From Solobacterium sp. (GTDB lineage Bacteria > Bacillota_I > Bacilli_A > Erysipelotrichales > Erysipelotrichaceae): 43,160 nucleotides of DNA. The position numbers and the translations under genes are program-made. The DNA lies in contig JAILQT010000030.1 of NCBI GenBank assembly GCA_024698805.1, positions 1 through 43,160 of the forward strand, given 5' to 3'. The notes beneath the pieces were generated by a model, which was given only the letters and a program-made list of their open reading frames with translations, was not told the origin of the DNA and ran no database searches. This document shows positions 3,274 to 43,160 of this stretch, one piece after another; the stretch's first letter is position 1; every line of letters begins with the position of its first letter.

Positions 3274-3801
3274 ATGACAGTCAGATTAGAGGATTATATC
3301 GCAACGATACCGGATTTCCCGAAAGAAGGCATTCTTTTCAGAGATGTGACGCCGATGGTCGCCGATGGTGAAGCTTTCCACCAGATGGTCGACGAGATCG
3401 CTGAATACGCGAAGTCGGTCGGTGCCGAAGTGATCGTCGGACCGGAGAGCCGCGGTTTCCTTTTCGGATGTCCTGTAGCCTATGCGATGAATATCGGATT
3501 CGTACCTGTCAGAAAACCCGGCAAGCTGCCGCGCGAAACGGTCTCCTGCACATACGATCTGGAATATGGCTCCAATGAACTGCATATGCATAAAGACGCG
3601 ATCAAACCCGGGCAGAGATGCCTGGTCATCGACGACCTGCTCGCTACCGGCGGGACTGCGGAAGCAGCCTGCAAACTGGTCGAAATGGTCGGCGGCGTCG
3701 TGGCAGGACTTGCTTTTGTCGTTGAACTCGAAGGCCTGGACGGTATCGCGCGTATCGACGGCTACGATGTTTACAGAAAAATGTACCTGTCTGACAAATA
3801 A
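3274..3801 (+). CDS. apt: Adenine phosphoribosyltransferase
   Basis: '[17 protein letters not shown]', '[11 protein letters not shown]', '[22 protein letters not shown]' PRPP motif. Confidence 0.95.
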
Positions 3802-3826
3802 TCGAAGCCGGTCTTCGATTTTTCAA
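3800..3826 (+). terminator. Rho-independent terminator after apt
   Basis: AATCGAAG ccggt CTTCGATT followed by T-tract. Confidence 0.7.
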
Positions 3827-3839
3827 TAAGGGGAGGGAT

Positions 3840-6041
3840 ATGGCTGAACACAAAAATCCGGGAATTGATGATGTAATGGATGAAGCCAAAACATATATTC
3901 ACGCACCGGAGAGTCTTGCATTGCTCGAAAAAGCCGCGAATTACGCGTCCGAGCACCATGCAGGACAATTTCGTCGTTCCGGAGAGCCGTATATCATCCA
4001 CCTGACAAATGTAGCTTACATCCTCGCGAAGATGCGCTGCGGGCCGATGACGGTCGCTGCCGGTTTCCTGCATGACGTGATCGAGGACTGCGGCGTCTCG
4101 CATGAACAGCTCGCCCGTGATTTCAGCGATGAGATGGCGGACCTCGTCGAAGCAGTCACAAAGGTCGGCACCCTTGAGTTCAAGGGGAAGGACGACCCGG
4201 AATACCAGGCTGCCAACCACCGCAAGATCTTCATTGCGATGGCGAAGGACGTGCGCGTCATCCTGGTCAAGCTCGTGGACAGGCTGCACAACATGCGCAC
4301 GCTGCAGTACCAGTCGGAAGCTTCCCAGAAGCGCATCGCGATGGAGACGCTCGAAGTCTATGCGCCGATCGCGCACCGTCTCGGTATCAGTTCCATCAAG
4401 AACGAGCTCGAGGACCTGTCTTTCTTCTATCTGAACCGCGAGGAATACTACCATATCGCCAAGCTCGTGGAAGCGAAGAAGGCGGAGCGCGACGAGGCGG
4501 TCAGCCGCATGATCAGCGACATCTCGGAGATGCTGAAGGAGAACAACATCGAATTCCGGATCTTCGGCAGGTCCAAGCATCTGTATTCGATCTACAGGAA
4601 GATGGTCACAAAGCACAAGCGGTTCGACGAGATCCTCGACCTGCTCGCGATCCGCATCATCACGAAGACGGAACTGAACTGCTACGAGGTGCTGGGTTAC
4701 ATACACGCGGCCTACAAGCCGATCCCCGGCAGGCTGAAGGATTATATCGCCGTCCCGAAAACGAATATGTACCAGTCGATCCATACGACGATCATCGGCG
4801 AGGACGCGAAGATCTTCGAGGTCCAGATCCGGACCGAAGAGATGGACGCTGTCGCCGAACGCGGTGTCGCGGCGCACTGGAGATACAAGGAAGGTTCCAA
4901 ATACGACGCCAGGGCGGAACAGAAGGAGATCGAGAACAAGCTCTCCTGGTTCAAGAACTTCGCACTGTATTCCGAGGACGACGTCAATGAGAGCGCCTCC
5001 GAATACATGGCGACGCTGCAGCGCGACGTCTTTGAAGCCAATGTATATGTCATGACCCCGATGGGGCGCGTCATCGACCTGCCCAACGGCGCTACGCCGA
5101 TCGACTTCGCCTACCGCATCCATACCGATGTCGGCCATACGGCGGTCGGCGCGATCGTCAACAACGCGATGGTGCCGCTGAATACGGAGCTCCATACGGG
5201 CGACGTCGTGCAGATCAAGACGATGAAGGGCACCGGTCCGAGCGAAGACTGGCTGAAATTCGTCAAGACGAACCAGGCACGCAACAAGATCCGCCGCTAC
5301 CTGCAGCTCAAGGAATCCGAAAAGCATGAAGAGCGTGTCGCCGAGGGCGAGAAGGCCCTGGCGGAAGAGCTGCGCAAGCGTGGTGCAGACCCGAAGGAAT
5401 ATCTCGACAAAAAGCATATCGAGCCTTTGTACAGGGAATTCCGGGTGACCAATTATACGGAATTCATGTATTCCCTTGCGGTGAAGTCCAACAGCGTCTC
5501 GGCCGTCGCCGACAGACTGACGAACCAGCGTCATGTGCCGACCGAGGACGAAGTGCTCTCCAGGGTGCTGAACAAGGAAGAGCCGAGGAGGACGACAAAG
5601 CTCGGCCTCGTCATCCCCGGCATCGAGTCGATGAAGATGTCCATCGCGCATTGCTGCAAGCCTGTCTACGGCGATAAGATCGTCGGCTTCATCACGAAGG
5701 CGGACGGCGTCAAGGTGCACCGCGCCGACTGTTCGAACATCATCCACATCAAGAACAGGAAGATCCCCGTCGAATGGGATGAAGGCGATCATGAGCGGCT
5801 GTATGACAGCGTGCTGATCGTCAACTGCTATGACCGCAGCTTCCTGCTCACGGATATCGTGACGCTCGTCAACCAGTGCAAGGTGCCGATGGAATCGGTC
5901 AGCGCCAATGTGAACAAGGACAAGATCACGAGCACGATCAAAATGAGCATCCGCGTCCATGACCTCGATCAGCTCGAGAACGTCATCTCGAATCTGCGGA
6001 AAGTCGAATCGGTCATCACGGTCAAAAGATCGTCGCAATGA
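3840..6041 (+). CDS. relA: RelA/SpoT bifunctional (p)ppGpp synthetase/hydrolase
   Basis: HD domain 'GFLHDVIEDCGV', synthetase 'PIPGRLKDYIAVPKTNMYQSIHTTIIG', TGS 'TPMGRVIDLPNGATPIDFAYRIHTDVGHTAVGA', C-terminal ACT. Confidence 0.95.
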   Translation: MAEHKNPGIDDVMDEAKTYIHAPESLALLEKAANYASEHHAGQFRRSGEPYIIHLTNVAYILAKMRCGPMTVAAGFLHDVIEDCGVSHEQLARDFSDEMADLVEAVTKVGTLEFKGKDDPEYQAANHRKIFIAMAKDVRVILVKLVDRLHNMRTLQYQSEASQKRIAMETLEVYAPIAHRLGISSIKNELEDLSFFYLNREEYYHIAKLVEAKKAERDEAVSRMISDISEMLKENNIEFRIFGRSKHLYSIYRKMVTKHKRFDEILDLLAIRIITKTELNCYEVLGYIHAAYKPIPGRLKDYIAVPKTNMYQSIHTTIIGEDAKIFEVQIRTEEMDAVAERGVAAHWRYKEGSKYDARAEQKEIENKLSWFKNFALYSEDDVNESASEYMATLQRDVFEANVYVMTPMGRVIDLPNGATPIDFAYRIHTDVGHTAVGAIVNNAMVPLNTELHTGDVVQIKTMKGTGPSEDWLKFVKTNQARNKIRRYLQLKESEKHEERVAEGEKALAEELRKRGADPKEYLDKKHIEPLYREFRVTNYTEFMYSLAVKSNSVSAVADRLTNQRHVPTEDEVLSRVLNKEEPRRTTKLGLVIPGIESMKMSIAHCCKPVYGDKIVGFITKADGVKVHRADCSNIIHIKNRKIPVEWDEGDHERLYDSVLIVNCYDRSFLLTDIVTLVNQCKVPMESVSANVNKDKITSTIKMSIRVHDLDQLENVISNLRKVESVITVKRSSQ

Positions 6042-10325: not shown

Positions 10326-10703
10326 ATGAAAAAACGGAAAAAGACGAAGACGACGGCCGCAGGCATCATAGCAGGATTGATGGCTGTCTCCTTCTCGCAG
10401 GCGTGCATATTCAACCATAATGCTGCCGTCTACGGGCCGCCTCCTTCCGCTTCGTACGATCCGGATGACAATGTCAACGAAGACGTCTACGGGCCTCCCG
10501 AGGAGGATCCGGCAGAGACCCCGGTGACGGAGCAGATCGAAGAGACGTATGACCCTGCAGAAAATGTTCCTGTGTGCGTCTACGGTCCCGCGTCGTATTT
10601 CGAGGATGAGGAACCGGCGGAAGAGACGGCTGTGCCGCAGGAGACATACGATCCCGAAGAGAATGTGCCTGCCGACGTATACGGCCCGCCGCCCGCAGAC
10701 TGA
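10326..10703 (+). CDS. Small secreted/lipoprotein-like peptide with repeated YDPxxNVxxxVYGPP motifs; putative rSAM-modified RiPP-like precursor
   Basis: 125 aa; basic, hydrophobic N-terminus (MKKRKKTKTTAAGIIAGLMAVSFSQAC); four VYGP motifs, three within YDP(DD/AE/EE)NVxxxVYGP units; stop at 10701-10703 followed at once by the rSAM ATG at 10705. Confidence 0.7.
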   Translation: MKKRKKTKTTAAGIIAGLMAVSFSQACIFNHNAAVYGPPPSASYDPDDNVNEDVYGPPEEDPAETPVTEQIEETYDPAENVPVCVYGPASYFEDEEPAEETAVPQETYDPEENVPADVYGPPPAD

Positions 10704-10704
10704 T

Positions 10705-11784
10705 ATGAAGACGGTCAGGGAGATCAAACAGGAACATCTGGATATCCTTTCGGATCATGTGCAGAAGCTGTACCGGAAACCGCAGCTGAAGCATCTGTTC
10801 CTGGAACTGACGCTGCGCTGCAACGAGCACTGCTTCCACTGCGGCAGCAGCGGCGGCGACGTACGCAGCGAAGAGATGACATCCGATGATTACAGGCGCG
10901 TCCTCGATGAGGTAAAGCAGGACTTCGATATCTCGAAGATGATGCTGTGCATCACCGGCGGCGAGCCGCTGCTCAGGAAGGACTTCTTCGATATCCTGGG
11001 CTATGCGCACAGCCTCGGCTATACATGGGGCATGACGACCAACGCGACGCTGATCACGAAGGATATCGCGCATAAGCTTCATGAATGCGGGATGGTTACC
11101 GTATCCGTGTCCATCGACGGACTGGAGGAGACACATGACAGCCTGCGCGGCATGAAAGGCGGCTACAGACGCGCCATGGAAGGCATACAGAACCTCATCG
11201 ACGAGGATGCTTTCCGCAATGTGCAGGTGACGACCGTCATCAACCGGAAGAACATTTCCGAACTGGACGACCTGTTCGGGATCATGGACGGCCTGGATAT
11301 CGATTCCTGGCGCGTCATCCACCTCGAACCGATCGGCAGAGCGCTGCTGAGGCCGGACCTGATGCTGGAAAAGGAGGATTATATCCGCCTGTTCAGCTTC
11401 ATCCGTGAAAAAAGGCAGCAGGAATACCCGCTGGAGTTCGGATGCAGTCATTATCTCGGACTGGATCTAGAAGCCGAAGTCCGGGACTGGTACTGGCTGT
11501 GCAATGCCGGCGTCCATACGGCTTCGATCATGGCGAACGGCGATATCGGCGCGTGTCTCGATATTGAAAGACGACCGGAAACGGTCCAGGGGAACATATA
11601 CAGGGACAGGTTCTCCGATATCTGGCAGAACCGGTTTGAACTGTTCCGCAGGGATCTTTCCGCAGATACGCAGATGTGCAGCGGCTGCGCGCATGCGAAA
11701 TACTGCCGCGGCGACGCGCATCACAGCTACGATTACGATCACAGAAAGCCCCTCGTATGCATGAAGGGGATACTGTTCGAATAA
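10705..11784 (+). CDS. Radical SAM/SPASM-domain protein, putative peptide maturase
   Basis: CxxxCxxC in 'LRCNEHCFHCGSS', 'ITGGEPLLRKDF', C-terminal Cys-rich SPASM-like 'CNAGVHTASIMANGDIGACLDI...CSGCAHAKYCRGDAHHSY...CMKG'. Start set at ATG 10705 (ORF track over-extends to 10549 in another frame of the peptide gene). Confidence 0.85.
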   Translation: MKTVREIKQEHLDILSDHVQKLYRKPQLKHLFLELTLRCNEHCFHCGSSGGDVRSEEMTSDDYRRVLDEVKQDFDISKMMLCITGGEPLLRKDFFDILGYAHSLGYTWGMTTNATLITKDIAHKLHECGMVTVSVSIDGLEETHDSLRGMKGGYRRAMEGIQNLIDEDAFRNVQVTTVINRKNISELDDLFGIMDGLDIDSWRVIHLEPIGRALLRPDLMLEKEDYIRLFSFIREKRQQEYPLEFGCSHYLGLDLEAEVRDWYWLCNAGVHTASIMANGDIGACLDIERRPETVQGNIYRDRFSDIWQNRFELFRRDLSADTQMCSGCAHAKYCRGDAHHSYDYDHRKPLVCMKGILFE

Positions 11785-11829: not shown

Positions 11830-12720
11830 ATGAAATACGTCATGACCGCATTGTCTGCTGCGGCACTGCTGTGCCTGTGCGGCTGTTCCGCGGGAACTCC
11901 GTCAGCAGCGGCATCTTCTAAGACGCCGTCCCCCGAGGGGGCTGCGGCGTGGACACTTGAGGATATACGGTATTATGCCGGCGGCGACAGCAACGGCAGC
12001 ACGGACACGCTCTCGCTTTCACGCCGGGAGAACGTCCTCGTGCTCAACCAGAGCCCGGCGTTCTATGTGCCGGTGCGCGTGAGCGAATACAGCGTGACGG
12101 CGGATACGTTCACGAAGATCGAAGCGCTGCTCGATCCCGCAGAACTCGGCGCATGGTCAAAGATCGAAGCGGAGACTGAGGTCCTCGACGGTCCGGGGAA
12201 CAGCTATATGTTCCGGATCACGGAAAACGGTGCAGAGAATACGTATTACATCGACGGCTATGCGGACCTCGGCGGCGGCAATGCCGTCCTGAAGGAGGTC
12301 ATGGACATCGTCCGGGCGAACATGAACGAACAGCAGCTGCGCGTGCAGTACCTGCTGAATGAAGAAGAGGCGGTAGCCGATGCAGAGATCTCCTCCCTCA
12401 ACGAAGAGACGATCACATACCTGATGGGCGGATACTGGCAGTGCGTCAGCGAGCTGGTTGACGGGCAGCCGGAGGACCACGGCATCACGCTGATGAATTC
12501 GAATGAATACTGCTCCTACACGGATGCGGAACATGAGGAAAGCGAAGAGTTCACGATCCGGATCGTGAAGGAGCCGCTGGAGGATCTGGACAGTGCCTGG
12601 TATGCCGTGTTTGAAAATGACGAACACAGCTTTACAGCCGTGCTGCGCGGCGCGAAGCTGATCACGTCGCGGCAGGCGGGAGAGCATATGCGCTATTGTG
12701 TCTTTGAGCGCGCATCATAA
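11830..12720 (+). CDS. Putative lipoprotein of unknown function
   Basis: N-terminal signal 'MKYVMTALSAAALLCLCGCSAG' with lipobox LCGC; no recognised domain. Confidence 0.7.
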   Translation: MKYVMTALSAAALLCLCGCSAGTPSAAASSKTPSPEGAAAWTLEDIRYYAGGDSNGSTDTLSLSRRENVLVLNQSPAFYVPVRVSEYSVTADTFTKIEALLDPAELGAWSKIEAETEVLDGPGNSYMFRITENGAENTYYIDGYADLGGGNAVLKEVMDIVRANMNEQQLRVQYLLNEEEAVADAEISSLNEETITYLMGGYWQCVSELVDGQPEDHGITLMNSNEYCSYTDAEHEESEEFTIRIVKEPLEDLDSAWYAVFENDEHSFTAVLRGAKLITSRQAGEHMRYCVFERAS

Positions 12721-34599: not shown

Positions 34600-34781
34600 A
34601 ATTGTGATTTATTGTGCGGATTTTACACGAAAACGAACGGATTTGACATATGCATGATAATTGACGGAATGATACCATTATTATTGATAAAAGAGGGCTT
34701 TGAACAAAGTCTGTTTTCAGCGGTATCGCCCAATAGGCATACCCATGCATTCATATCATGCGCAGAAAGGATAATAGGACT
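34600..34781 (+). promoter_or_regulatory. Conserved 5' leader copy C
   Basis: TGCGGATTTTACACGAAAACGAACGGATTTGACA..., hairpin GGTAT(C)GCC CAATA GGC ATACC (34722-34743), CCCATGCATTCAT. Confidence 0.65.
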
Positions 34782-37700
34782 ATGTACAAGAAACTGTTTG
34801 TCGTATTGATGTCACTGTTTCTGTCTGTTACAGTCCTGCCGCAGAATGTTTTTGCGGAGGAAGAGACAGGAGAAACAGAAGAAGAGATCGTTGAGATCGA
34901 AGAGTCTGTACAGGAAGAAGAGGCTGTCCCAGAAGAAGCGATCGAAGAAGGGGAACCAGCGGAGAGTATTCCCGAAGAGGCTGTTCCTGAAGAGACAGAA
35001 GAAGTGCTGCCCGAAGAGGAAGCACCAGAAGAACAGGAAGAAGTAATTCCTGAAGAGACAGAAGAACCTGTGATCGCAGAGGCTGAAGAACCTGAAGAAG
35101 AGATCGCAGAGCCAGTACAGGAAGAGCCTGCTGAAGAACCGGAGATCGAGGTAACGCAGGAGAACGAGCATGAGGAGGAGATCACAGGGGAGGAACCTGA
35201 AAAGGAGCCTTCTGAAGAAGTACCTGCAGAGGAGATCGTTGAAGAAGAAACTGTGCAGGAACCTGAAGTGATCACCGAAGAGGAAGAGGAAACTATTCAG
35301 AATGACGAATCTGCAGATGGATTGGAAGATGCGATCCTGCTTACAGAGGGCGAAACTGTACAGATCAGCTCTGAATCCGGTGAGCCTGTCTATCTGAAGT
35401 TCATCCCGTCCGAATCTGCGAATTATAAGATCTGGTCTTTTGATAATGAAGGTGTTGATCCTTTAGCAGAATTGCTGGACGAAAATGGTGATGTGCTGCT
35501 TGAGGATGATGACGGTGCCGGAAATCTGAATTTCTCACTTAAACAGGAATTGGAAGCAGGAACAACATATTATATTCAGGCACGTTCATACAGCAGCAGT
35601 TTTGCCTATAGCGTTGCAGTGGGGAAATATGAAGTAGTTTCCATAACGTTTGATGCGAACGGCGGCTGGTTTGATAATGAAGATGATACTGAGAGAACAT
35701 ATAAATTTGAAACAGGTGATTATTTCAGTTCTATATATGCCTTGAATCATTCTGATTCTAATATGAGTTTTGCCGGCTGGGCGACAGCACCTGATGCAGA
35801 AGAACCGGATGTGTTTGAAGGACAAACACCTGTTTCAGAACTTACGACTGTGTATGCTGTATGGGCAGAGAGTGTTCAGATCACGCTGAATGCTAACGGA
35901 GGTGTTTTCAATACGCATCCCGGTGATCTCGACGAAGACGGACAGTTCGTAAATACATATGCTAAATTCAAAACGATTGACCTGCAGCAGTATAGAGATA
36001 TTATTGGATATTCCTCTATTCTGTATGAATGTGCCGGGTTCTCAGAAGATCCGGATGCATCGCCTGATGATGCGGTACTGTCATATAAAGTCGTCAGTCC
36101 CGTGGTATTGTATGCTGTTTTCAGAAGACATCCCGGGACCGAGGCCAGCTTGAATCAGACAATCAGCGGAACAATTGAAGGAAACAGTGAATACTGGATC
36201 GAATTTGTACCGGAGGAGACTGGCGGCTATACATTTATTACGGAAGGCAGATACAGTTATCCTGAGTACAGAACTGAAGATCAGAGTTCTCTTAATAATC
36301 TGACAACATCCTATACCGATGAAGACGGAAAGGAACATCATAGTGCTAAAGTCCTGCTTCAGGCCGGAAAGCATTATGCAATCAGACTCGTAAATAATAA
36401 TTCAGAAGCATGTGAGTTTACTGCACAGGTCGTCGAAGGTGAATCAGTTTCTGTAACCTATGATGCAAACGGAGGGTATATCAATATAGATGATAATCCT
36501 GCTTTGTATACTGAAACAGTTATCCCCGGGAAGTATTTTGAAGCGCATGGCAGTGAGTTTGTAAAAAACTATGATGCGCATATGCGGTTTGCCGGCTGGG
36601 CAATGACACCGGATGCGGTTGAGCCGGATATCAATTCTAATACAATGATTGAATCAGACATTACTGTCTATGCAGTATGGGTGAATGAATATACTGTCGT
36701 TACGCTGGATGCCAACGGCGGCAGGATGGATCCTGATCAGGATCCTCCCCTGTTAATTGAAGAACTGCAGTATTATGCAGGAGACACACTGTATCTGTCA
36801 TCGTACACACCGTCAAAAAATTTATGGCAGGGTGATTTTGCCGGCTGGGCACTGACTCCCGATGCGGATGTTACAGAAGTACTGCCGAATGATGAACCGT
36901 ATGTCATTACAGAAGATATAACCTTCTATGCAGTTTATGAATATATTGAAGTAGTTGAACTGCCAGAAGGAGTAAATGCCGGACTGCAGCTGAGCGGATC
37001 CGAAAGAAAATGGGCTTCATTCAGCCCGGAAGACAGTGGTAAATATGTGCTGGAACTCGAATTGTTAGGAGAACTTGAATCGGAGGATTATTTGTACCTC
37101 GAAGTGAACAATTCCGAAGACTCACAAATTAACAGTCATTTTATTTTTAACAATCGGGTGAACCTTTACGAAGAATTCACTGACTCCAGGACATATTATC
37201 TTTCTTTTGAGACCGAATCCTCTGATATCATGGTCGCAATAAGGATAAAGAAGTCTTATGCAAATACAGTCACTTATGACGCGAACGGCGGCTGGTTTGA
37301 TAATGAAGACAATACTGTAAGAACAGAGGAATTTGAATCGGATGAATACTTCCGTTCATATACTCCGAATCACTCAGATCCTGCATTGCGTTTTGCCGGC
37401 TGGGCAACGACGCCGGATGCAGAAGAAGCTGATGTTATTGAAGGACAGACCCTTGCTTCAGAACTGACGACTATCTATGCAGTATGGAAAAGCAGAACAC
37501 AGATCATATCCCTGAACGAAAGCGGGACCGTACATGTAAGCGGTGGAGCCGAAGATCAGATCTATCTGGAGTTCATACCTTTAGAAACAGCAGAGTACAA
37601 GATCTATTCTTCTGAGAATGAAGGAACAGATCCATATGCGAAACTGCTTGATGAAAACTATGATGATCTCACTTCAGATGATGACAGTGCCGGTGACAGG

Positions 37701-40700
37701 AATTTCCGATTGACACAGGAACTGGAAGCAGGAAAGACATATTATATCCTTGTGACTTCTTTCAGCGAAGGTAATTTCACTTATGACGTTACAGCGAAAA
37801 AAGTGACTTTCGTCTCAGTCATATTGGATGCAAACGGTGGTCAGTTTAATAATGGCGATACTGAAACGACCCTGGATTTTGATTCCGATGAATACTTTTA
37901 TCTTGAGGGTGACCTGACTCCCTGGAAGGATGAAATGGGATTTGCCGGCTGGGCAACGGCACCGGATACAGAGGAACCAGATGTAATTGAAGGAGAAACT
38001 CCTGTTTCAGAACTGACGACTGTGTATGCAGTATGGGGAGAGTATGTTGAGATCACACTGAACGCTAACGGAGGGTATTTCACAGAAGAATATGATCTGG
38101 ATCAGGCGGGACAGATCACAAAGACATACGTAAAGAATGCAACGATCAATTTACAGTGGTATAAAAACGATACCAGATATTCCACACTTCTGTATGACTG
38201 TGCCGGCTTCTCAGAAGACCCGGATGCATCAGCTGACGAAGCTTTCTGGTCCTATAAAGTGAATGGTCCGGCAGTGCTGTACGCTGTTTTCAGAGAATAT
38301 CCGGGAACTGAAGTCAGTCTGGATCAGACGGTAACCGGAACGGTATCTGCAGGCAGTGAATACAGGTTTGAATTCATACCGGAAAAGACCGGCGGATATT
38401 CGTTCATTTCGGAAGGGGGATTCAATGATTCCTATTATGTTGATGAAAATGGTTATGGTTTTGCAGAGCGGACAGAAACTGACTATGAAGATGGAATCAG
38501 ACGTGAAACTGTTTCTGCAGTCATGGAAAAGGGCAAGCATTATGTCGTCAGGATCATAAACGACTCTGATGAAGATGCAGAGGTCACTTTACAGGTCAGT
38601 GAATGTTCCACCGTTTCTGTTACATATGATGCGAACGGAGGGTATATCAATGTAGATGATAATCCTTCTTCGTATACTGAAACAGTGATCCCGGGAAAGA
38701 ACTTTGAAGAACAATACACTGATTTTGCAAAGAACAATGACGCGCATATGAGATTTCTCGGCTGGGCAACGACACCGGATGCGGAAGAACCGGATATTGA
38801 TTTTAATATAATTATTGAATCTGATATCACTGTTTATGCAGTCTGGGAGAATGCATATCTTGTTGTGACTGTAGACGCTAACGGCGGTCTGTATAACAGT
38901 GATCCTCATAGCTATCTGCCGCGTTACGAGATTGCGGCAGACTACGGAGATGAGTTCTATCTTCGCTCAAACAATTTAGTGCACGGATGGCAGGGAGAAT
39001 TTATCGGATGGGCTCTGGTTCCTGAGGCGGATGAATCTGAATTGTTAACCACAGACGGACCTTTCATCATTACTGAAGATATTACTTACTACGCAATATA
39101 TGAGAAATCAGATCGATATATATTGCATGAGAATGAAACAATCGAAATACATCCGAATTATCCCCGGACAGTAGCTGAGTTTACACCGGAAGAGAGCGGT
39201 TACTATGTACTGGAAACGGCAGGGAATGACGGGACTGATGTGTCAGCAGAATGCACTGTTGAAGTTTATGAAGAGGATGGATATGCGCTCGCCAGTTCAA
39301 ATTATACGGGCGAACTGCATTTTGAGCTTGCTGAATCTAAGACATATTATGTGAGTTTTTCGAATTATGATTCCATTGATACGATCACTGTAAAGATCAC
39401 TAAGCCTGTTTCGAATACAGTTACCTATGATGCAAACGGCGGCTATTTTGATGAAGATGGACATCCTCAGACAATCACCAGGTCAGTGGTAACAGGCAGA
39501 AACTTTGACGCTCTGTATGATAATTATGTGTTAAACGATGATATGGATCTGGGATTTGTAGGCTGGGCTACTGCACCTGATGCTGAAAAGCCGGATATTG
39601 ATTCAAGTACTGTCATAGGATCTGATATTACAGTTTACGCGGTATGGAACAAAACAGTTACTGTAACATTCATAACTGCAGAAGGGTATTATGAAACTCC
39701 CGGACAGACAGTCATAGAAAGAAAACTGGTTACCGGAAAGGAGTTCTGGATTTCCGGTGCAAAGCCGCTGCATTCCGATCAGCATAAGATATTCAAAGGA
39801 TATTCATTCACTGATGGTGCAGAAGAACCAGATCTGGACTGGTCATTTACCGTTACAGAGCCTGTCACTTTATATGCTGTATGGGAGGAAGGTTTTGTCA
39901 TCACATATAATGCAGGTTCGGGTTATATAGGTGATGATACCGGAATCAGGCAAAAGACTTATACAGTTTCTGAAAATGAATTTTTCGATGATGATATCTT
40001 TGCCGAAAATGAAGATGATCACTTCCATTTTATCGGCTGGGCTTCAACAGAAAATGCTGCTGCAGCGGATATGAACGATTCTTTCCGAATCACACAGGAT
40101 ACTAATGTATATGCTGTATGGGAAGAAAGATTTGTCATCCGTTATGACCTGAACGGTTATAAACCCGGCAAAGGTGCTGGCAGAAGTGTTTACCCGGTCA
40201 AAAAGAATTCGGTTGTCAATTTATATAGTCTCAACGGATATTCCTATAACAGTGAACAGATCAACTTCGAAGGCTGGGCACTCAGCCCCGACGCTTCTGC
40301 CGCGGATGTGCTTCCGGAGAGGTATACAATAACTTCTGATATTACAGTTTACGCTGTCAGCGATCCAATTCAGGAGATCACTGCAGGTGAAACTTACGAT
40401 GTATATTACGGTTTCCAGAAAGCATTCTTCTTTACACCGGAAGAATCAGGTACATATAAATTCGCAGCAGATGATTATACACCTGGTATGTATAAAGGAT
40501 TTGAGATCAAGGATTCCAATAATAATACTGTGGGATATGAATATCATGACAGCGGCAGTTTAAGCTTGTTTATTGAACTGAACGCAGGGGAAACCTATAC
40601 GGTAATTGCAGATAAATCGAATGGTTATAACAGATTCTCATTCAAAGTTGAGAAAGCAGATGCTTTCCCTGTAACACTGAATGCGAACGGCGGTACTTTC

Positions 40701-43160
40701 TATGAGAATAACGCAGATACATATATTGCGTTAGCAGAAGCAGGAACTCTGTTCCGGACGATCAGTCATTCCGATCTGGACCGTGAAGGATATGCGATGA
40801 TCGGCTGGTCGCTGCGTCCGGATGCGGCAGAACCTGATGATCTTAAGAATTTTGAGATAACGGGTCCGCTGACTGTTTATGCGGTTTGGAAGAAATACGT
40901 AAATGTCAGCTTTGATCTGAACGGCGGGTTTTATGTATCACCTTATAATGACGGATATACAGAAGCAATCCTTCCGAATACTGCGATCAGACCCTCTGAG
41001 ATGCGCGGCTCTTTACATGGAAATAATGGAATATTGCATGAAGGGGATGTAATGTTTGCGGGATGGGCATTAAGTCCGGATGCAACAGGAGCAGAGATCG
41101 TTTCAGAGTATACGGTCGAATCTGACGTTACTTTCTATGCGGTATGGGTCCCTGCAGTACAGGTTTACTTTAACGGGAACGGCGGAAATGTATATTACAG
41201 CGGGTTTGGCGAGCCGGAATGGAACCTTCCCTGCATAATCGGTTCTGCACTCGATTGTCCTTTCTGGACAGAGCACTATACGAAGCTGAAGGTATTTACC
41301 GGCTGGGCAACTACGCCGGATGCGACAGTACCGGATATCGATGAAAACACGATCGTCACGGAATCATTTACAGCATATGCAGTCTGGGAAGATGGCTATA
41401 CCGTCACATTCGAAGCGAATGGAGGCAATTTCGGAACTGATTACAATCCAAGATTCCACTATTCCTATGCATACAAAAAAGGGAGTGCCTTTGGCGATAA
41501 TATCAAAAGCGAAATGTATTCGGACGTACGGATCCCGGAACCGGATAACCCGATTCTTGCTTTTGCAGGATGGGCAACTGCACCGGATGCGGAAGAACCG
41601 GATGTTGATGACAGCTTTGTGATCGACAGGGACATGAAACTCTATGCAGTGTGGAAAGAGCCTGTATACATTGTTTATGATGCCAACGGCGGGATCTTTG
41701 AAGAGAAAAAGGAGATAAAGATCCATGAAAAGCAGCTGGCAGGAAGCAGCTTCAATACACCTCCCTATGTTCCGGTCAATGCGGATGAATCGCTTGCGTT
41801 CCTCGGCTGGGCAACTGTGCCGAATGCGGAAGCACCGGATATCGACAGCAATACGATCGTTGCAGAAAACATGACGGTATACGCTGTCTGGGGTACACAG
41901 AATACTGTTACGGTCACATATGATGCAGGAAACGGATATTTCAACGGTGATCCTGCAGACACGGCATTCAGCAAAACATATGATAAGAACATATACTGCG
42001 ACATGTCCGATGCCCCGGTACTGCAGCCTGCAGATGAATCACAGGAATTCCTGGGATGGTCTGAAGACGGCAGTATCAGCGGTATCATCGACGGATTTAC
42101 CGCAGCAGGAGATACGACACTGTATGCAGTATACGCAGCACGTACGATTGAAAATGCTCGGACAGAACTGTCAGTAACTACGGCAGTATACAGCGGGACA
42201 CAGATCAGACCGGAGTGCTCTGTATCCTTCTATGGCAGAACACTTGCGGAAGGTACTGACTATACAGTCAGTTATGAAAACAATATCAATGCAGGAACAG
42301 CAGCTGTTACGATCACAGGTATCGGCAGCTTTACCGGCACGGTCACAAAAGAGTTCACGATCACGCCAAAAGCAATTACACCTGCAGTTTCATTCGCAGC
42401 AGAAGTAATATCTTACGACGGTACGGTAAAGACTCCTGAAGTTATCGTGAAAGACGGGGAGACAGTACTGACAAAAGATACAGACTATACAGTTACGTAT
42501 GGTGAAGGAAGGATCAATGCCGGTACATATACGGTTACCGTGGATCTGACAGGCAACTACACAGGCACTGCATCAGCTGCGTTTACGATCAATGCAAAAG
42601 CAGTGACACCGGAAGTAACGCTCAGCGAAGTCTCCTATATCTATGACGGGGTAGTCAAAACACCAGAAATCACGGTCAAAGACGGCAGCACTGTCCTTAC
42701 AGCAGGCATTGATTATACAGCGGCTTATGCGGATGGAAGGATCGAACCGGGAACTTATACCGTAACAGTTACACTGACGGGCAATTATTCAGGAACAGCT
42801 TCTGCAGAGTTTACGATCCTGGAAGAAGAAGCTGAACCTGAAGCAGTACTGGCTGAAACGACATATGAATATGACGGTACGGTCAGGACACCTGAGGTGA
42901 CGGTAACAGCCGGCAGTAAGACACTTGCGGAGAATACAGACTATACAGTTGCGTATTCATCCGGAAGGATCGATGCAGGCACATACACGGTAACGGTAAA
43001 CCTGACCGGCAGGTATTCCGGAACGATCACAAAAGAATTCACGATCACACCGAAGGCCATCGTACCTGCAGTCACACTGACAACGACATCCTATACATAT
43101 AACGGTTCGAAGCGTACACCGGGTGTATCTGTCAAAGACGGTGATACGACACTGGTCAGG
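34782..43160 (+). CDS. Giant modular secreted repeat protein (>=2793 aa, 3'-truncated by window edge)
   Basis: ATG 34782 (MYKKLFVVLMSLFLSVTVLPQNVFAEEE), frame open to the window end by my reading (absent from the ORF track because it has no stop in the window); E/P-rich stalk, 7 PPC-like modules, about 19 'DANGG...(A/L/I)GWAxxPDAxxPD...ITVYAVW' Flg_new/InlB-B-like modules, then MBG/YDG-like repeats 'YDGTVKTPEVxVKDG...GTYTVTVxLTGNYTGT'. Confidence 0.85.
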   Translation, partial: MYKKLFVVLMSLFLSVTVLPQNVFAEEETGETEEEIVEIEESVQEEEAVPEEAIEEGEPAESIPEEAVPEETEEVLPEEEAPEEQEEVIPEETEEPVIAEAEEPEEEIAEPVQEEPAEEPEIEVTQENEHEEEITGEEPEKEPSEEVPAEEIVEEETVQEPEVITEEEEETIQNDESADGLEDAILLTEGETVQISSESGEPVYLKFIPSESANYKIWSFDNEGVDPLAELLDENGDVLLEDDDGAGNLNFSLKQELEAGTTYYIQARSYSSSFAYSVAVGKYEVVSITFDANGGWFDNEDDTERTYKFETGDYFSSIYALNHSDSNMSFAGWATAPDAEEPDVFEGQTPVSELTTVYAVWAESVQITLNANGGVFNTHPGDLDEDGQFVNTYAKFKTIDLQQYRDIIGYSSILYECAGFSEDPDASPDDAVLSYKVVSPVVLYAVFRRHPGTEASLNQTISGTIEGNSEYWIEFVPEETGGYTFITEGRYSYPEYRTEDQSSLNNLTTSYTDEDGKEHHSAKVLLQAGKHYAIRLVNNNSEACEFTAQVVEGESVSVTYDANGGYINIDDNPALYTETVIPGKYFEAHGSEFVKNYDAHMRFAGWAMTPDAVEPDINSNTMIESDITVYAVWVNEYTVVTLDANGGRMDPDQDPPLLIEELQYYAGDTLYLSSYTPSKNLWQGDFAGWALTPDADVTEVLPNDEPYVITEDITFYAVYEYIEVVELPEGVNAGLQLSGSERKWASFSPEDSGKYVLELELLGELESEDYLYLEVNNSEDSQINSHFIFNNRVNLYEEFTDSRTYYLSFETESSDIMVAIRIKKSYANTVTYDANGGWFDNEDNTVRTEEFESDEYFRSYTPNHSDPALRFAGWATTPDAEEADVIEGQTLASELTTIYAVWKSRTQIISLNESGTVHVSGGAEDQIYLEFIPLETAEYKIYSSENEGTDPYAKLLDENYDDLTSDDDSAGDRNFRLTQELEAGKTYYILVTSFSEGNFTYDVTAKKVTFVSVILDANGGQFNNGDTETTLDFDSDEYFYLEGDLTPWKDEMGFAGWATAPDTEEPDVIEGETPVSELTTVYAVWGEYVEITLNANGGYFTEEYDLDQAGQITKTYVKNATINLQWYKNDTRYSTLLYDCAGFSEDPDASADEAFWSYKVNGPAVLYAVFREYPGTEVSLDQTVTGTVSAGSEYRFEFIPEKTGGYSFISEGGFNDSYYVDENGYGFAERTETDYEDGIRRETVSAVMEKGKHYVVRIINDSDEDAEVTLQVSECSTVSVTYDANGGYINVDDNPSSYTETVIPGKNFEEQYTDFAKNNDAHMRFLGWATTPDAEEPDIDFNIIIESDITVYAVWENAYLVVTVDANGGLYNSDPHSYLPRYEIAADYGDEFYLRSNNLVHGWQGEFIGWALVPEADESELLTTDGPFIITEDITYYAIYEKSDRYILHENETIEIHPNYPRTVAEFTPEESGYYVLETAGNDGTDVSAECTVEVYEEDGYALASSNYTGELHFELAESKTYYVSFSNYDSIDTITVKITKPVSNTVTYDANGGYFDEDGHPQTITRSVVTGRNFDALYDNYVLNDDMDLGFVGWATAPDAEKPDIDSSTVIGSDITVYAVWNKTVTVTFITAEGYYETPGQTVIERKLVTGKEFWISGAKPLHSDQHKIFKGYSFTDGAEEPDLDWSFTVTEPVTLYAVWEEGFVITYNAGSGYIGDDTGIRQKTYTVSENEFFDDDIFAENEDDHFHFIGWASTENAAAADMNDSFRITQDTNVYAVWEERFVIRYDLNGYKPGKGAGRSVYPVKKNSVVNLYSLNGYSYNSEQINFEGWALSPDASAADVLPERYTITSDITVYAVSDPIQEITAGETYDVYYGFQKAFFFTPEESGTYKFAADDYTPGMYKGFEIKDSNNNTVGYEYHDSGSLSLFIELNAGETYTVIADKSNGYNRFSFKVEKADAFPVTLNANGGTFYENNADTYIALAEAGTLFRTISHSDLDREGYAMIGWSLRPDAAEPDDLKNFEITGPLTVYAVWKKYVNVSFDLNGGFYVSPYNDGYTEAILPNTAIRPSEMRGSLHGNNGILHEGDVMFAGWALSPDATGAEIVSEYTVESDVTFYAVWVPAVQVYFNGNGGNVYYSGFGEPEWNLPCIIGSALDCPFWTEHYTKLKVFTGWATTPDATVPDIDENTIVTESFTAYAVWEDGYTVTFEANGGNFGTDYNPRFHYSYAYKKGSAFGDNIKSEMYSDVRIPEPDNPILAFAGWATAPDAEEPDVDDSFVIDRDMKLYAVWKEPVYIVYDANGGIFEEKKEIKIHEKQLAGSSFNTPPYVPVNADESLAFLGWATVPNAEAPDIDSNTIVAENMTVYAVWGTQNTVTVTYDAGNGYFNGDPADTAFSKTYDKNIYCDMSDAPVLQPADESQEFLGWSEDGSISGIIDGFTAAGDTTLYAVYAARTIENARTELSVTTAVYSGTQIRPECSVSFYGRTLAEGTDYTVSYENNINAGTAAVTITGIGSFTGTVTKEFTITPKAITPAVSFAAEVISYDGTVKTPEVIVKDGETVLTKDTDYTVTYGEGRINAGTYTVTVDLTGNYTGTASAAFTINAKAVTPEVTLSEVSYIYDGVVKTPEITVKDGSTVLTAGIDYTAAYADGRIEPGTYTVTVTLTGNYSGTASAEFTILEEEAEPEAVLAETTYEYDGTVRTPEVTVTAGSKTLAENTDYTVAYSSGRIDAGTYTVTVNLTGRYSGTITKEFTITPKAIVPAVTLTTTSYTYNGSKRTPGVSVKDGDTTLVR
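35338..39660 (+). repeat. Tandem super-repeat, two copies of about 2.17 kb, inside the giant ORF
   Basis: Corresponding landmarks: FIP at 35400 and 37572 (offset 2172); ITLNANGG at 35880 and 38052 (2172); CAGFSEDPDAS at about 36033 and 38202 (2169); YDANGGYIN(I/V)DDNP at about 36462 and 38628 (2166). Confidence 0.8.

Follow-up and report, generated by a model that had tools for sequence, protein, structure and literature searches.

A VYGPP-repeat surface protein and its adjacent radical SAM/SPASM enzyme in Solobacterium: a candidate two-gene module for splicease-like protein modification

In a window of 43,160 nucleotides from a Solobacterium sp. genome (the whole stretch of DNA that was analysed), a gene encoding a short repeat protein lies directly ahead of a gene encoding a radical SAM/SPASM enzyme. 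As an earlier note on this DNA had described, a single base separates the end of the 125-aa reading frame (10703) from the ATG of the enzyme (10705). The features of the pair are the following:

10326-10703, + strand: VYGPP-repeat protein, predicted substrate, 125 aa (ORF and translation; orthologues adjoin the enzyme in same-genus genomes)
10326-10406, + strand: putative export signal, basic and hydrophobic, up to Cys27, with the imperfect lipobox SQAC (sequence and orthologues)
10428-10445, + strand: unit 1, VYGPPP (sequence)
10455-10499, + strand: unit 2, YDPDDNVNEDVYGPP (sequence; compare the family consensus [FY]DPxxNxxxx[VL]YGPP)
10548-10592, + strand: unit 3, YDPAENVPVCVYGPA (sequence)
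10647-10694, + strand: unit 4, YDPEENVPADVYGPPP (sequence)
10705-11784, + strand: radical SAM/SPASM enzyme, 359 aa (Pfam domains, best NCBIfam match TIGR04133, AlphaFold2 model)
10819-10848, + strand: SAM-cluster motif CxxxCxHCGS, residues 39-48 (CxxxCxHC, residues 39-46)
11500-11760, + strand: SPASM cysteines C266-x12-G-x4-C284, C325-x2-C328-x5-C334 and C352 (sequence comparison)

Neither partner is named by curated NCBIfam or Pfam models, and at E≤1 the repeat protein matches nothing in either collection. Its four V-Y-G-P units start at residues 35, 54, 85 and 118, the first of them 8 residues past Cys27, and read in order VYGPPP, VYGPP, VYGPA and VYGPPP. The arrangement is the one previously reported, an isolated first unit followed by three that are preceded at fixed spacing by YDP(DD/AE/EE)N (residues 44, 75 and 108), the third being VYGPA and not VYGPP. 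Synonymous codons vary between the units, and in 100,000 shuffled versions of the mature region the count of [VIL]YGP units never exceeded 2, against the four observed. The motif is constrained at the peptide level, as the earlier note had held. Orthologues have clear lipoboxes (e.g., VMAGC, IPGC or VSGC), and a simple pattern finds a lipobox-like site in 36 of 72 members of the YGPP family. The Solobacterium protein is secreted and probably lipidated, and it looks like a surface-displayed and not a released product, as had been suspected.

The enzyme matches the Pfam domains Radical_SAM (PF04055, E 2.7e-21) and SPASM (PF13186, E 3.6e-8), in agreement with its first assignment. A mechanically called start at 10549 was rejected, this being merely an upstream in-frame ATG, and homologues begin at 10705. 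The HCGS that closes the SAM-cluster motif is present in 80/80 clade members from the best 80 related loci and is common to the enzymes compared whose partners carry X-Tyr-Gly (XYG), whereas glycine occupies residue 47 in 0/9 other SPASM enzymes. An invariant cysteine (C247, in GCSHYLG) lies just N-terminal of the SPASM cysteines, and the SPASM region is devoid of the C-x3-C of TIGR04103 enzymes. In the AlphaFold2 model, built from 39 aligned sequences (pLDDT 93.2, pTM 0.90), one N-terminal helix only precedes the barrel, so the enzyme has no fused RRE domain. The solved folds nearest to this model are SkfB, SuiB, CteB and anSME, that is, thioether, Lys-Trp crosslink and anSME enzymes, and PDB sequence and fold searches returned generic SPASM relatives only, with no splicease among them.

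The same pairing is found in many other genomes. Each of seven same-genus genomes with a close enzyme, the Solobacterium source included, has a YGPP-type ORF upstream of it. Genomes of 84,980 species were scanned and the best 80 related enzyme loci kept, mostly from Bacillota of the rumen and gut and in some cases from Coriobacteriia; a same-strand upstream YGPP ORF is present at 72 of these 80. Upstream YGPP motifs at the 80 loci number 280 on the strand of the enzyme and 2 on the opposite one, 243 of the 280 being within 1 kb of the enzyme; the median gap between the two genes is 25 nt, and a locus carries up to 13 units. The eight exceptions include two at a contig start, two with the YGPP gene downstream, and one with YGPS. 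A second, evenly drawn sample comprised 598 Clostridia genomes, in which the enzyme is present in 26/299 (about 9%) of the Ruminococcus flavefaciens family and 18/299 (about 6%) of the Butyrivibrio family. At the 43 loci read from this sample, YGPP is on the enzyme's strand in 33 and on the opposite strand in 0, with no adjacent upstream YGPP gene in the other 10. In both samples, some loci without upstream YGPP are at contig ends, or have YGPAP, YGPS, IYGPxP or YYGCP instead.

The earlier note had named beforehand YGPP peptides away from any radical SAM gene as evidence that would count against its pairing, and none was found in the 598 genomes. YGPP-protein queries matched 15 of them, 14 being enzyme-positive with the match adjoining the enzyme (14/14) and the fifteenth containing no YGPP; these queries, short and of low complexity, miss many true YGPP proteins, so that the result speaks for restriction to enzyme-bearing genomes and not for completeness. 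A DNA pattern of paired YGPP codons matched 2 genomes among 60 relatives, both carrying the radical SAM enzyme, and the reversed control pattern matched 4, so that this comparison carries no weight.

When the ORFs flanking the best 80 loci were clustered, YGPP genes were the only neighbour conserved across many loci, and the other large clusters were made up of frames antisense to the enzyme gene. Near the pair, in the window and at the best 80 related loci alike, we detected no RRE, protease or transporter, which extends to relatives what had been noted for this locus. Similarly, no PlpY-like protein or Nif11/NHLP leader was found by family matching among the neighbours, in the window or at related loci; an Rfam search gave no RNA element near the pair, and viral and phage collections returned distant radical SAM proteins only. 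With the pairing so widely kept, peptide and enzyme are almost certainly substrate and enzyme.

Just 3' of the enzyme lies a lipoprotein-like ORF of 296 aa (11830-12720), with no significant Pfam or NCBIfam match and not kept beside the enzyme at other loci. Further downstream, a secreted protein longer than 2801 aa is encoded by an ORF (34758-43160) that runs off the window; its N-terminus is acidic, and its repeats are similar to InlB-type surface modules.

YGPP having served as the search key, the information in a profile of 314 distinct units resides in the preceding residue X and in the contrast with other positions. X is Val in 69%, Leu in 18%, Ile in 4% and Ala in 4%; all positions other than X-Y-G-P-P stay below 50% identity, no partner residue is conserved at a fixed spacing, and Cys occurs at -2 in 17%. 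The proteins carrying the motif are of low complexity and fast evolving (mean column identity 7%); among 72 of them are 15 with a type I dockerin, 3 with DUF805 and 1 with Big_2, most of the remainder being short-lipoprotein-like. A second, paralogous enzyme in the Solobacterium genome (contig C48; L014, identical to L145) is encoded beside three tandem double zinc-ribbon proteins. In the zinc-ribbon partners of this enzyme and of that from G040, I-Y-G-P-x-P, placed between two Cys pairs, is nearly always kept, and other partners in the second sample carry VYGPAP or YYGCPNS. Taking into account that the scaffold varies while X-Tyr-Gly-Pro (X = Val, Leu, Ile or Ala) stays, this stretch is the likely substrate, and the enzyme most plausibly recognises and modifies X-Tyr-Gly-(x)-Pro.

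Pairs of similar enzymes and zinc-ribbon proteins were also seen in G040 and Lachnospiraceae genomes (L013, L189, L190 and L195).

The pair had been put down as a candidate uncharacterised system, yet it does have named relatives. Its best NCBIfam match is TIGR04133, at 270 bits, below the curated cut-off of 425; the best E-value against this model among 39 members of the enzyme family is 3.1e-92, compared with 5.7e-186 for a true member, and enzymes from Parabacteroides and Phocaeicola reach 608 and 618 bits. TIGR04134, the lipoprotein partner family, was matched neither by the Solobacterium peptide (0 families) nor by ten partners from related loci. The score against TIGR04103 is 126.6 bits, below its curated cut-off of 725, and that against the mycofactocin enzyme MftC is 136 bits. 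In a maximum-likelihood tree, unrooted and with few outgroups, XYG-partnered enzymes lie on one side (96/92) and MftC, NirJ, PqqE and others on the other, the YGPP, zinc-ribbon and TIGR04133 enzymes forming one group (95/95); HxsB (a long branch) and Tropicibacter (excluded over its substrate) were left out of this tree, and with both in, it took three label changes to obtain the XYG group. On this sequence comparison, the YGPP-partnered enzymes are placed as sister to the TIGR04133 'rSAM/lipoprotein' family and grouped with TIGR04103-type enzymes.

The TIGR04133/TIGR04134 pairs of Bacteroidota and Treponema, named by NCBI, likewise consist of an adjacent radical SAM/SPASM enzyme and lipoprotein, and share with the YGPP pairs YG-x-P at the lipidated Cys and the invariant HCGS. 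In Parabacteroides, Phocaeicola and Treponema, CEYGSP, CEYGTP or CYGMP occurs near the lipoprotein N-terminus, with the Cys of the Treponema protein directly at the signal end, and at 15 Bacillota loci of the best 80 the first YGPP directly follows the lipobox Cys (e.g., VEGCVYGPPP). They differ in that the TIGR04134 lipoprotein is larger and has one YG site near its start, whereas YGPP units are repeated and sit in acidic repeats, dockerin or DUF805 proteins. TIGR04103-type enzymes are presumably connected with PlpX, a link that we draw from precursor type and motif, PlpX itself standing outside the enzymes compared. The partner of a Nostoc TIGR04103 enzyme is a Nif11 precursor with the C-terminus GRGSIALYGLPPELF (ALYGLPPELF), an end similar to VYGPPExF, the consensus of the YGPP family, and also to the splice tag published for PlpXY, GGPIRPLYGLPI (PMC10533398).

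PlpXY acts on LYG and MYG by excising tyramine and was tested on that tag (PMC10533398), PlpX acting together with the RRE protein PlpY on precursors with Nif11/NHLP leaders (PMC11002830). Both systems combine a radical SAM/SPASM enzyme with an X-Tyr-Gly site, X being Leu or Met in PlpXY (with x-Pro following in LYGLP) and Val, Leu or Ile in the YGPP family (PMC10533398, PMC11002830). From the motif and the kinship, we infer that the YGPP enzyme catalyses tyramine excision or a closely similar reaction. Unlike PlpXY, the YGPP system has no Nif11/NHLP leader, PlpY/RRE partner or RiPP gene cluster, and it presents repeated sites in exported modular proteins; its enzyme differs from TIGR04103 in the set of SPASM ligands (C-x3-C absent, C247 invariant). 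Because PlpY, leader, SPASM ligands and repetition of sites differ, the enzyme would be better described as working like a splicease than as being a PlpX-family splicease.

Several other readings were weighed. Accidental neighbourhood of a housekeeping radical SAM gene and an unrelated surface protein might be suggested by the low complexity and rapid evolution of the YGPP proteins, but it is refuted by two samples in which the genes co-occur and adjoin each other and no other neighbour competes; hardly any weight is left to it. It has also to be considered that YGPP could be a recognition tag only, with the modification made at another residue or on a cofactor that is bound, or that the protein could be a carrier. 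The linkers, in which [FY]DPxxN is loosely kept before VYGPP, and the Cys found at -2 in a minority of units would agree with such a role, which is nevertheless improbable, given that identity falls below one half everywhere outside X-Y-G-P-P and that the motif recurs in unrelated scaffolds.

A more serious competitor, though well behind tyramine excision in our estimate, is that the same Tyr, or the preceding Val, undergoes another change, be it a Tyr-centred C-C or C-O crosslink, β-hydroxylation, desaturation or epimerisation. SPASM enzymes yield many products, the nearest solved folds belong to enzymes of other chemistries, and DUF1843 partners within the same large group show PYG or YA in place of a strict XYG. 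MftC too acts on a Val-Tyr pair, MftA ending in GVY, and is recovered at 136 bits; its VY is C-terminal, however, it has the RRE partner MftB, and in the tree neither MftC nor PqqE belongs to the XYG group. Against such chemistries, Gly and Pro are kept together with Tyr across scaffolds, as in the XYG-x-P splice motif. A crosslink is disfavoured by the absence of a conserved partner at fixed spacing, and a thioether by the lack in most units of the Cys donor of sactipeptides; the constant XYGPP likewise sets the system apart from the thioether cores of sactipeptides and ranthipeptides. Tyr, Asn, Val and Pro had all been listed as potential sites; kinship with XYG-partnered enzymes now favours the Tyr of X-Tyr-Gly, which is very probably the residue modified, and tyramine excision there is the reading that we consider rather likely.

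Radical SAM chemistry is cytosolic, and modification should for this reason precede export. It is proposed that the two genes form a module for surface-protein modification, in which the enzyme would modify the neighbouring protein in the cytosol, at its X-Tyr-Gly-Pro units, and export and anchoring would follow. In a splicease-type reaction, tyramine would be cut from the Tyr and the ends rejoined, with a predicted change of -135.08 Da (-135.0757) per site, which would replace the -2 Da per motif formerly suggested. Each Val-Tyr-Gly would become an α-keto-β-homovaline-Gly linkage, and each Solobacterium molecule could display up to four electrophilic α-ketoamides. We hold this scheme as a whole to be somewhat better than evenly supported. 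About even odds are given to a broader proposal, in which a splicease-like family of gut and rumen Bacillota and of some Coriobacteriia, requiring neither leader nor RRE, would install α-keto-β-amino arrays in surface lipoproteins and in membrane, zinc-ribbon and dockerin-bearing cellulosomal proteins. The label 'RiPP-like' fits loosely. The system departs from classical RiPPs in having an export signal in place of a leader, in lacking an RRE, a leader protease and an exporter, and in that whole modular proteins are among its substrates in many cases. Scott et al. (Chem 8:2659) reportedly surveyed spliceases in 2022; a literature search on YGPP, TIGR04133/TIGR04134 and rSAM-associated lipoproteins found no paper, and did not cover this possibly overlapping survey.

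YGPP proteins of two Coriobacteriaceae MAGs (L022 and L023) have a twin-arginine-like TRREF signal, compared with KK-type signals elsewhere; this signal fits modification before export. The L022 protein contains five VYGPP units.

As for the biological role, which is speculative, protease capture or inhibition at the cell surface or in the cellulosome would be the most likely use, although we regard it only as a tentative suggestion. Spliceotide α-keto-β residues give potent protease inhibition, according to a paper citing Scott et al. 2022 (PMC10373908), and protease inhibitors borne on dockerins are part of cellulosomes (PMC12484212). Elastase- or subtilisin-like proteases might, speculatively, be the targets of a tethered ketoamide whose P1 residue is Val, Leu, Ile or Ala. 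The YGPP dockerin proteins and the cellulosomal serpins and Dpi are all dockerin-carrying accessory proteins, the latter having folded inhibitor domains and the former short repeats with a modifying enzyme (PMC12484212, PMC2930009); a functional parallel may be drawn by analogy.

A testable function is hereby proposed for an unnamed enzyme family, present in about 9% and 6% of the genomes sampled from two Clostridia families, and also, by extension, for the Bacteroidota TIGR04133/TIGR04134 pair. If the proposal is true, electrophilic β-amino residues would be installed in ordinary surface and cellulosomal proteins in the absence of RiPP machinery, and backbone-rewritten residues would belong to routine surface biology rather than to natural-product chemistry, with a bearing on protease defence in the gut. 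Moreover, small, leader-free and repeatable splice tags would become available for protein engineering.

Some further loci were observed among the relatives. On the Agathobacter rectalis plasmid NZ_CP143948.1 (L126), a small unannotated frame (3728-3941) ending in FGPVMYGTGVRM (VMYGTGVRM) lies just upstream of a radical SAM gene whose product is sister to TIGR04103, with an MFS transporter next; this locus, from an isolate of the human gut, is a spliceotide-like candidate. DUF1843 ('GDL') peptides beside TIGR03913 enzymes (L128 and L129) carry RPYGPA, QPYGAG or LYAAG/MYAAS, hinting that this system may belong to the same Tyr-centred group. At L194, a lipoprotein-like ORF (about 1297-1533) and a downstream copy, ending in DYYGCPNSRRVKKLN and SYYGCPNSKKVKKLN, flank a related radical SAM frame that holds one stop, and they are possibly another type of X-Tyr-Gly-x-Pro substrate.
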